Assembly: GCA_016196625.1 (NCBI GenBank)
Contig: JACPXH010000006.1
Location: 1-32,659, forward strand
DNA length: 32,659 nt
Direction of reading: 5' to 3'
From: Candidatus Parcubacteria bacterium
Lineage (GTDB): Bacteria > Patescibacteriota > Minisyncoccia > JACPXH01
The stretch's first letter is position 1. Each line of letters opens with the position of its first letter. Both the position numbers and the translations under genes were made by a program. This document shows positions 5,849-26,019 of the stretch, piece after piece. The notes under the pieces are model-generated. The model made no database searches. It was given only the letters and a program-made list of their open reading frames with translations, and was not told where the DNA came from.

Positions 5849-5962
5849 TAAAATCCAAATTTCAAATAAAACCCAAAGCTCAAAATCCAAAACGTGTTTT
5901 GACATTTGAATTTTGGATTTGATTTGCCATTTGGGCTTTGGCATTTGTCATTCAAAGAAAGT
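5838..5962. repeat. low-complexity imperfect inverted repeat of CCAAATxxxAAATCC / TTTGG-type units
   Basis: TCCAAATGATAAAATCCAAATTTCAAATAAAACCCAAAGCTCAAAATCCAAAACG...TTTTGACATTTGAATTTTGGATTTGATTTGCCATTTGGGCTTTGG. Confidence 0.75.
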
Positions 5963-6880: not shown

Positions 6881-7405
6881 ATGGATATACAGCCACCAAC
6901 GTCTTTTCAGCAACCGTCAGCGTCTGCACCGAACGAGGGCAGTCAGACGCGGTTTGGTTCTCGGAGCGTCGCGCCGTGGATGGCGCTCGCTCTCGTTGTC
7001 GGTGTCTTCACGGGGGTGACGACCGACTCGTGGTCAAAAACGTGGCAGGAGGTGGATTCGTACCACGCGACCGCATCCGTGCCCGCGAGCCGGGCAAAGT
7101 TGGCGTCAATTCAAGCAGCTGTATCAGAGAACGACATTCTTGATCCGTCTCCTCAGTATGGGTTCGGGCATCGGTTAGTTTGTCGGGAGTTGCTTGTTCG
7201 GTTTCGGACTGATGCAATGGGTTCAGTTTTGGGGATCGTGCGGCGGCACAATGCCGAGATTGCTGATCCTGTGCTGCCCGGACCTCGCGGCTGGTTGGTG
7301 TCGGTGGGCGGAGCATGCACGCACGGGGCCTTGCAAGCTGCGATTAGTGATTTCGCCGCTGATCCAGACGTGGTTTCAGTCGGGCCGCATTACATCGGTA
7401 TTTAG
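6881..7405 (+). CDS. membrane-anchored hypothetical protein with subtilase-propeptide-like C-terminus
   Basis: N-terminal TM then ELLVRFRTDAMGSVLGIVRRHNAEI...LQAAISDFAADPDVVSVGPHY, resembling I9/fervidolysin-N-type propeptides. Confidence 0.5.
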   Translation: MDIQPPTSFQQPSASAPNEGSQTRFGSRSVAPWMALALVVGVFTGVTTDSWSKTWQEVDSYHATASVPASRAKLASIQAAVSENDILDPSPQYGFGHRLVCRELLVRFRTDAMGSVLGIVRRHNAEIADPVLPGPRGWLVSVGGACTHGALQAAISDFAADPDVVSVGPHYIGI

Positions 7406-7519: not shown

Positions 7520-8563
7520 ATGGTCGAATCGGAATCGGGTTCCGGCAGCCAGCAACCAACCCCGCCGTCCTCTTCTGCGAGCGGCGGAACAGTTACGCCA
7601 GCCGGTCAGAAAAAGGTTCAACTGTTTAACTCTGACAAGTGGGTTGAGTCTGGCCGTCTGATGCCGTGGGTGGTGCTGGCTGCGGTTATAGCAACGTTCA
7701 CCTGGATCGTCTCGGACGCATGGTCAAGAACGTGGCAGGAGGTGGAGGTGGATCAAGCACCCCTTGTCAGATTATCCCGGCAGGCGAATGCAATTCCCTC
7801 CGGTTGGAAGATCTATCGCGTGGTGGTAGATGGAGAAACCATGCCCCTGCCGTTTACTTTCGCGTATCCGCCGATACTTGGTGAAGTACGATCAAAGTCA
7901 GGTATCGGACTCCCCCTACCCGCTTCCCAGAGCTACGCTGCATCACTAGAGATTTTGGGCGTACCAGATCAGCCGGAGATTCCCTTTATACCAACAGTCT
8001 ACCTTACGAGGGACGCCATCATAGCGCCGTATCTCGGGCCGATTCACGGGGCCCACGAGGCCTTCATTGATGATGACGGGGACTACGGCGGGCAGAAGAA
8101 AGAACAGCGCGTATACGAGAGCGTTCTTGCACACCTTGCAGGCGTAACAGCCCAGAATTTCTGTGAAGAACTCGGGAGTGGTCCCTTGAACCATGGGGGC
8201 CATCTCGTTCTCCCCGACCATCTCAAACGCCGCGTTATTGAGCTTGAACAGACCAATGACTTCCGTGGGCTGTATGGTTTCTCGCAGCGAGTCGTTTCGT
8301 GTGAGGTCGAGGGGAATATCGCTTCCTTTATTGTTGCAATACAAATGCCAGCTCGCTGGACGCCGAATGCCGATATAGTTGAGGTGCGTAGTGTGGGCGC
8401 TGTGAAGTTCATGGATGGTACAAGTGAGTTCTCATCGTTCGCGGTAGTCAGCCTCGTTCGTTTCGGCGAAGAGTACGCCGCACAGTATTCAGAGGGAGAA
8501 GTTCTGCGTATTATAAGATTGATGGTGCGATCCTTTCGATTTACGGATGATGGCGTTAGGTAA
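7520..8563 (+). CDS. membrane-anchored hypothetical protein sharing an N-terminal TM module with the 6881..7405 product
   Basis: MPWVVLAAVIATFTWIVSDAWSRTWQEVEVD vs APWMALALVVGVFTGVTTDSWSKTWQEVDSY. Confidence 0.75.
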   Translation: MVESESGSGSQQPTPPSSSASGGTVTPAGQKKVQLFNSDKWVESGRLMPWVVLAAVIATFTWIVSDAWSRTWQEVEVDQAPLVRLSRQANAIPSGWKIYRVVVDGETMPLPFTFAYPPILGEVRSKSGIGLPLPASQSYAASLEILGVPDQPEIPFIPTVYLTRDAIIAPYLGPIHGAHEAFIDDDGDYGGQKKEQRVYESVLAHLAGVTAQNFCEELGSGPLNHGGHLVLPDHLKRRVIELEQTNDFRGLYGFSQRVVSCEVEGNIASFIVAIQMPARWTPNADIVEVRSVGAVKFMDGTSEFSSFAVVSLVRFGEEYAAQYSEGEVLRIIRLMVRSFRFTDDGVR

Positions 8564-14570: not shown

Positions 14571-14717
14571 GCCGACCGCCGTTGCTCCCGAAGCGACATC
14601 CGCAGCCGAGCGGCACGGTCCGCATGCTCAACACGTTGAGTATGCGGCGCTCGGCGAGGACAGAGTGAGCGAGTCGCTGGACGAGCGAACGATCGCTGAG
14701 GGAGTGCGGCGGTCGGC
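14571..14717. repeat. dispersed nested-palindrome element, copy A
   Basis: Ends GCCGACCGCC / GGCGGTCGGC; core hairpin CCGCATGCTCAA-CACG-TTGAGTATGCGG; 34-nt block identical (inverted) to copy B. Confidence 0.85.
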
Positions 14718-17662: not shown

Positions 17663-17780
17663 AATGGCAAATGTCAAAATCCAAATGACAAATCAAATCC
17701 AAAGCTCAAAGTTCAAAACGATTTTGGCTTTAGATTTTGAACTTGATTTGATCTTTGAGTTTTGGCATTTGGAATTGAGG
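17663..17780. repeat. low-complexity imperfect inverted repeat, same family as 5838..5962
   Basis: CAAATGTCAAAATCCAAATGACAAATCAAATCCAAAGCTCAAAG...TTTTGAACTTGATTTGATCTTTGAGTTTTGGCATTTGG. Confidence 0.75.
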
Positions 17781-24623: not shown

Positions 24624-24906
24624 GGGCAGGTACCGAAGTGGTCAAACGGGGCAGACTGTGGTAAGCGCAGCTCGTCGGGGAAACTCGGCGATGAACATTC
24701 CGGGATAACGGTGGAGCCCTTCGGGGTAATACCGTGGGAACCCCGAGTATATTGGGGACCCGTAGAGACTAGATACCGGAGCACCCCCTCCTTCGACTCA
24801 ATGTCGGAGTCGGGTGAAGATATAGTCCACGCCCTTGGGAAACCTCGGGATCAGTGAAATCTGCTGGCTTTCGCCTTCGGGGGTTCGAATCCCTCCCTGC
24901 CCACCA
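24624..24906 (+). tRNA. tRNA-Tyr (anticodon GTA) split by group I intron; exons 24624..24659 and 24857..24906, CCA encoded
   Basis: Joined exons give GGGCAGG...CCTGCCC-A-CCA, anticodon arm GCAGA-CTGTAAA-TCTGC, long variable arm, T-arm GGGGGTTCGAATCCCTC (class II tRNA as expected for bacterial Tyr). Confidence 0.92.
24660..24856 (+). ncRNA. group I self-splicing intron, ~197 nt, no ORF
   Basis: 5' exon ends in U with IGS GCAG at 24667-24670 (P1, G.U); P2 CGTCGGG-GAAA-CTCGGCG; P5 ACGGT/ACCGT; R-like AGAGACTAGA (24764-24773) with S AAGATATAGTCC (24817-24828), P7 GACTA/TAGTC; P8 CACCC/GGGTG; terminal G at 24856. Confidence 0.93.
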
Positions 24907-24947
24907 ATCAGAAAACTACCGAGACGTGTCTCGGTAGTTTTCTGATT
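24906..24947 (+). terminator. 20-bp hairpin terminator after tRNA-Tyr
   Basis: AATCAGAAAACTACCGAGAC GT GTCTCGGTAGTTTTCTGATT, then TTG. Confidence 0.85.
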
Positions 24948-24959
24948 TTGTACGGTTGA

Positions 24960-25104
24960 GGAGGGATTCGAAAGGTATCCCCAAAACGCAAACTGCTTTG
25001 CGTTTTGGGGAACCCCGGCTCTGGGGGAGAAATCGAGCCTGTCCCGAGCGGCGTCGAGGGACGTGCGAGATTTTGGAGGAAGAGGAATCCCTCCCTGCCC
25101 ACCA
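24960..25104. repeat. element bounded by inverted tRNA T-arm fragment and a duplicate of the tRNA-Tyr 3' end
   Basis: GGAGGGATTCGAA (24960-24972) inverted copy; GAATCCCTCCCTGCCCACCA (25085-25104) direct 20-nt copy of 24887-24906; internal CCCCAAAACGCAAA-CTGC-TTTGCGTTTTGGGG palindrome (24979-25010). Confidence 0.85.
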
Positions 25105-25400: not shown

Positions 25401-25542
25401 GGCACGCCTCAGCCCCTCTACGAACATTCGCTCGTCCAGCGACTCGCTCACTCTGTCCTCACCGAGTGCCGCGCGCTCAGCGCGATGAGCGCGCGGGCCA
25501 TGCCACTCGGCTGCGGATGTCGTCTCGGGGCTGTGGCGCGCC
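25401..25542. repeat. dispersed nested-palindrome element, copy B (inverted relative to copy A)
   Basis: Ends GGCACGCCTCAGCCCC / GGGGCTGTGGCGCGCC; core CCGCGCGCTCA/TGAGCGCGCGG; blocks identical to copy A. Confidence 0.85.
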
Positions 25543-25584
25543 TCATCTCCACAATTTCTGTAAGGGCAAACAAGCAGAACGAAA

Positions 25585-26019
25585 ATGCTCATCGGCGAAT
25601 ACCGACACTCGATTGATCCGAAAAAGCGCTTGGCGGTTCCGGCGAAGCTGCGCAAGGAACTGGGCGAGAAGGTGGTGCTGACCCGCGGGCTCGACAGTTG
25701 CCTTTTCCTGTTTCCGATGAAGGACTGGGAGGCGCTTGCGGCAAAACTCAACAGTCTGCCCATGGGGCAGGGGGGTACGCGGGGGTTTGTGCGTCTTATG
25801 CTCGCTGGCGCAGGAGAAATTGAGATAGACAAACTGGGTCGGGTGCTCGTGCCGGATTACTTGAAGCAGTACGCGAACCTCAAAAAGAACGTGGTCATCG
25901 TTGGACTTGTGAACCGGCTGGAAATTTGGGAAGAGGCTCGTTGGAACGAATACAAGAGCGACACCGAAAAGCAGACGGGAGACATTGCAGAAAAGTTGGG
26001 AGAATTAGGAGTTCTTTGA
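25585..26019 (+). CDS. mraZ: transcriptional regulator MraZ
   Basis: MLIGEYRHSIDPKKRLAVPAKLRKELGEKVVLTRGLDSCLFLFP...LDKLGRVLVPDYLKQYANL duplicated SpoVT/AbrB fold. Confidence 0.95.
   Translation: MLIGEYRHSIDPKKRLAVPAKLRKELGEKVVLTRGLDSCLFLFPMKDWEALAAKLNSLPMGQGGTRGFVRLMLAGAGEIEIDKLGRVLVPDYLKQYANLKKNVVIVGLVNRLEIWEEARWNEYKSDTEKQTGDIAEKLGELGVL

Follow-up and report, generated by a model that had tools for sequence, protein, structure and literature searches.

Locus and surroundings

The window (the whole 32,659-nucleotide stretch analyzed here) carries two copies of a palindromic repeat. Copy A is flanked by a thioredoxin-like gene and a small ORF, and copy B, on the opposite strand, separates putative mraZ operator-like repeats from the mraZ start codon (Table 1). 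The two form a 125-nt inverted repeat with 82% identity, in agreement with the original prediction, and they were the sole strong matches when the window was scanned in full, unfiltered, with the final model. Because copy B is placed between the operator-like repeats and the start codon (window 25401-25585), the cell-division operon may carry an element in its 5' leader. The repeats adjoining copy B resemble mraZ operator boxes by eye (GTGGGA-like). In another family of the class (locus L058, genome G330), a copy in the same relative orientation as copy B is found just upstream of an mraZ-sized ORF and rsmH.

Three further features of the window were recorded. At 24895-24970, a perfect 19-bp hairpin (ATCAGAAAACTACCGAGAC/GTCTCGGTAGTTTTCTGAT) directly follows a sequence resembling a tRNA 3' end, GGGGGTTCGAATCCCTCCCTGCCCACCA, and is itself followed by an inverted GGGATTCGAA; no tRNA was called in this interval by ARAGORN or Rfam. 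A second inverted repeat pair (5896-5952 and 17663-17719) is of the low-complexity AATGTCAAATCCAAA type, 57 nt long and 84% complementary. The direct repeat at 6973-7056 and 7663-7746 (70% alike) is apparently the same stretch of two adjacent paralogous genes.

Table 1. Window coordinates of the two copies and of their structural parts.
Feature	Position	Strand	Remarks
Copy A, whole three-way-junction repeat	14571-14717	+	
Copy A, outer stem, 5' arm	14571-14589	+	partner 14700-14717
Copy A, GA of tandem G.A mismatch	14590-14591	+	partner GA 14698-14699
Copy A, P1b (TCC)	14599-14601	+	partner GGA 14658-14660
Copy A, P2, 5' arm, 8 bp	14605-14612	+	partner 14648-14655; two-sided change in 7 of 8 pairs, every cell paired
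Copy A, conserved bulge GCACGGT	14613-14619	+	GC-YGGU, phylum-wide
Copy A, P3 hairpin	14620-14647	+	hypervariable; two-sided change in 12 of 12 pairs
Copy A, P4 hairpin	14665-14690	+	GTGAGCGAGT[CGCTGG]ACGAGCGAAC; contains two tandem G.A mismatches
Copy A, terminal loop CGCTGG	14675-14680	+	conserved phylum-wide
Copy A, outer stem, 3' arm	14700-14717	+	partner 14571-14589
Copy B, whole element	25401-25542	-	
Copy B, bulge GCATGGC	25497-25503	-	conserved
Copy B, P4 loop CGCTGG	25436-25441	-	conserved

Fold and conserved motifs

The element is approximately 100-370 nt in size and forms a three-way junction in which a long outer stem leads to two hairpins, one bulged (P2/P3) and the other termed P4. 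Read inward, the outer stem, which is broken by tandem G.A mismatches (CCC-GA-AGCGA / TCGCT-GA-GGG), is followed by a short helix designated P1b, P2 (8-10 bp), a 7-nt bulge (GC-YGG-T), P3, and then P4, which is capped by the loop CGCTGG. In the source genome P4 reads GTGAGCGAGT[CGCTGG]ACGAGCGAAC, its two tandem G.A mismatches being of the CGAG/CGAG type. Other genera keep the loop, often on an ordinary Watson-Crick P4 stem. The two unpaired motifs, GC-YGGU in the bulge and CGCUGG in the loop, are kept throughout the phylum, and the stems are nearly unconstrained in sequence while their pairing is kept.

Copies A and B were much more stable than dinucleotide shuffles of the same sequences (z of -7.6 and -6.7, respectively; 0 of 200 shuffles as good). 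Their core and outer stems are unlike in sequence and have retained complementarity, as originally described. The identity of a 34-nt block shared by both copies was also borne out. This block occurs exactly four times in the genome, twice besides A and B, and two more occurrences carry one mismatch. Its description as unpaired did not hold, however, as it is partly paired and contains P4.

The same P3 hairpin (CCGAGCACTCAA...TTGAGTGCTCGG, or one close to it) was observed at L008, L011, L033, L035 and L041, which represent different genera and have different P2 and outer stems. Recurrence of P3 across genera suggests that hairpin modules are exchanged, or that horizontal spread has occurred.

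Covariation and folding strand

For nine copies from the source genome, aligned after long loops in four rows had been cut or N-padded, two-sided change was found in 23 of 37 pairs and 96% of cells were paired. None of 500 shuffles matched this, and sliding the partners reduced pairing to 31-42%. All 42 pairs covaried among 33 copies from many genera, and 103 distinct copies yielded 1590 two-sided cells, with 87.8% pairing versus 36-51% for slid partners. Note that the 33- and 103-copy alignments were fitted to the structure model and are therefore biased toward it; given the severity of the sliding control, this bias leaves the conclusion unchanged. In all three sets the stems of further copies stay complementary. 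That a structure (RNA or ssDNA) is under selection is thus strongly supported by covariation in approximately 100 copies of many genera, together with the strand asymmetry described below.

To avoid bias in comparing the arms, both G.T and A.C were scored as mismatches. Outer stems contained 29 G.T versus 5 A.C and 44 G.A versus 4 C.T, and the few mismatches in P2/P3 included 6 G.T versus 4 A.C. In 31 of 38 copies, folding was better for the copy-A strand than for the complementary strand. From the tandem G.A mismatches and the excess of G.U over A.C in the outer stems (29 to 5), the copy-A strand is the one that folds. The same outer-stem excess leans toward RNA rather than ssDNA as the folded strand. 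The nine source-genome copies alone contain 5 G.U and 6 A.C, effectively equal numbers, and G.U fills 6 of 824 cells in P2 (<1%), fewer than would be expected of an RNA helix that drifts freely.

Some copies that are otherwise alike within one genome differ by blocks of three or four compensated pairs, with no intermediates (P4 in genome G159 and P3 in G306), and one-sided steps are seen in other copies (G173 and G301). Change probably proceeds both by stepwise compensation and by rewriting en bloc.

Copies in the source genome

The source genome (25 contigs, 818 kb) yielded approximately 11 copies with R1, a covariance model built from four copies, extending the two from which the element had been predicted. 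Seven are short, at approximately 110-160 nt, and have the form of A and B or one close to it. A copy at C12:54294 has a long inner hairpin domain, and in those at C16:110441-110662 and C16:173456-173672 a long domain replaces ACAGAGTGAGC. The copy at C10:29604-29948 has both long domains and measures 368 nt when the outer stem is counted. At C10:18825 lies a copy without its 3' half, and at C16:34714 a solitary P3-like hairpin.

No coding potential was recognizable by eye in the 368-nt full-length copy. A decayed protein-coding gene, which the original prediction had named as one finding that would overturn it, was considered as the source of the shared blocks and rejected: no shared frame makes the block changes synonymous, and inspection by eye of the reading frames in the full copy revealed no conserved protein.

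Distribution

Model R2 detected the family in 26 of the 387 class genomes and in 5 genomes elsewhere in the phylum. A broader covariance model (R3), used at E <= 0.001, raised the class count to 130 of 387 genomes, about a third; the rough E-values predict well below one false genome at this level. In a sample of 363 genomes from the phylum, the same model detected the family in 15 that lie outside the class. Many class genomes have at least 8-9 copies by R3, all copy numbers per genome being lower bounds since no more than nine or ten candidates were scored in each, and one genus has dozens of related copies over four genomes. Public records carrying the pattern include Candidatus Staskawiczbacteria and Parcubacteria group bacterium GW2011_GWA2_45_30; the class appears to belong among Parcubacteria-type Patescibacteria. 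Phages gave no match to the element. One pattern match on a viral contig (L090) proved to be a chance match in coding sequence, and a phage origin was rejected.

Genomic setting and probable mobility

Copies are intergenic and occur in both orientations. In each of four genomes (G306, G301, G159 and G173), copies with near-identical cores and unrelated flanks occupy unrelated sites. Those of G306 and G301 start at approximately AGCGAGG and end at approximately CCGAGCG, and inspection of them by eye revealed no apparent target-site duplication. In genus g61 the cores are nearly identical, and the outer stems and P4 vary between copies and are still paired. An empty-site comparison at the rnc locus of one genus resolved no empty site, as the orthologous spacers were too diverged.

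No recurrent neighbor gene was found beyond housekeeping genes, and neighbors share no function; next to the recurring neighbors recA, aspS and gatA, the side and orientation of copies vary. Of 66 copies with close neighbors on both sides, 42 lie between tandem genes (16 sense and 26 antisense), 17 between convergent genes and 7 between divergent genes, the rarest arrangement. No promoter-like site was found near copy A. Four close pairs of copies (L086 1501-1762, L055 1501-1794, L188 801-1079 and L180 626-911) are all arranged 5' to 5', their model matches being 45-60 nt apart, and are reminiscent of inverted doublets. No autonomous relative was found.

Interpretation

The best reading of these data is that the feature being preserved is a folded strand (the + strand at copy A) and not a sequence. 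The repeat, which is dispersed, multi-copy and non-coding, is probably a non-autonomous mobile element of Patescibacteria, selected as folded RNA or ssDNA. Under this model, a trans-acting factor would recognize the invariant GC-YGGU bulge and CGCUGG loop, and would copy or move the element without duplicating target DNA. The stems could then drift or be rewritten so long as pairing holds.

A structured regulatory or functional ncRNA family with many paralogues, acting in cis at gene ends or in trans and kept for the benefit of the host, would likewise be expected to covary strongly, keep unpaired motifs and show strand asymmetry. Copies are indeed often near gene ends, with convergent settings exceeding divergent ones (17 to 7). 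We nevertheless consider such a family unlikely, because orientation to the neighbors is not fixed (16 sense and 26 antisense among tandem settings), the neighbors lack a common function, near-identical copies are present at unrelated sites of one genome, and copy A has no promoter-like site nearby. Quite unlikely is a non-autonomous ssDNA element of the RAYT/IS200 type, that is, an outsized REP/REPIN mobilized in trans by a Y1 (HUH) transposase. The original prediction had pointed to such an enzyme, and the hairpin-based architecture, the lack of a visible target duplication, the four 5'-to-5' pairs and the abundance of Y1 proteins in the class (233 of 387 genomes) are all in keeping with it. 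The link itself found no support: 20 Y1 loci (66 kb, scanned with R2 and R3) held no copy within approximately 1.5 kb of their Y1 genes. Co-occurrence is weak, Y1 proteins being present in 86 of 130 element-bearing genomes versus 147 of 257 others (odds ratio 1.46, Fisher p = 0.10), and the source genome itself has only a truncated IS200-like fragment. The element is also much longer than REPs, and no conserved GTAG/CGTC tag was seen at its foot (by eye in copy listings).

Joint rewriting of both arms by replication had been proposed as an alternative to selection. A reading of this kind takes the repeats as neutral palindromes homogenized by template switching (quasipalindrome correction), with covariation reflecting DNA replication error and not selection. 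The near equality of G.U and A.C in the source-genome copies (5 and 6) and the compensated blocks without intermediates in G159 and G306 are in keeping with this, and the blocks make joint rewriting a candidate contributor. Alone, it leaves the outer-stem strand asymmetry (29 to 5) and the conserved unpaired motifs unexplained. Arm correction would erase or ignore those phylum-wide motifs and the tandem G.A mismatches, and P2 holds at approximately 8-10 bp with its bulge in place, so a neutral origin is very improbable. It is also unlikely, though a little less markedly so than mobilization by Y1, that the repeat is an RNA-based mobile element or catalytic RNA of a new class, whose folded strand drives its own copying into new sites; this would entail a ribonucleoprotein or ribozyme built on the GC-YGGU bulge and CGCUGG loop across Patescibacteria.

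Genomes of Patescibacteria are small and streamlined, yet this folded and so far undescribed repeat is present in about a third of those sampled in the class, frequently with at least 8 copies. It is an extreme case of structure being retained and sequence discarded, with two short motifs persisting phylum-wide. Identifying what binds the bulge and loop would reveal a new mobilization or RNA system. With many independent copies per genome, the family also offers a test of whether compensatory change proceeds stepwise via G.U or in both arms at once.

Comparison with known systems

Searches of Rfam 15 with the window and with five related loci returned tRNAs only, and copy A and the 368-nt copy gave no credible match even at lax E-values. 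No earlier description of the element was found in the literature searched, which covers part of the field.

Small self-cleaving ribozymes such as the hammerhead combine a junction fold, hypervariable stems and short conserved unpaired motifs with scattered occurrence. The element resembles them in all of these respects, but a known ribozyme core is missing and Rfam gives no match. MITEs and intergenic imperfect palindromes (ERIC, Correia, RUP, BOX) are short, non-autonomous, dispersed and hairpin-forming. Like MITEs, the element is short, non-coding, dispersed, multi-copy and hairpin-forming; unlike them, it has no fixed terminal inverted repeat, and its terminal arms vary between copies in the same genome and covary. 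Target duplications were not apparent by eye in the G306 and G301 copies.

Dispersed double-hairpin or palindromic elements of organelles are regarded as selfish (e.g. PMC2670323, PMC4478555). The present element differs in being bacterial and phylum-wide, and in forming a three-way junction with conserved unpaired motifs. REPs are given as 20-40 bp, most with a GTAG or CGTC tag (PMC3733652). The element shares with REP/BIME/REPIN (RAYT) sequences its intergenic, multi-copy, palindromic and non-coding character and, in some cases, inverted close doublets. It departs from REP/REPIN in its size (approximately 100-370 nt), its three-way junction, its conserved bulge and loop, and the absence of any RAYT linkage in our searches. 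Since it lacks tested defining features of the REP-RAYT and MITE families, we place it in the broad kind of bacterial interspersed palindromic elements. There it represents an undescribed family of folded, dispersed repeats of Patescibacteria, most likely a non-autonomous mobile element under selection as a folded single strand.
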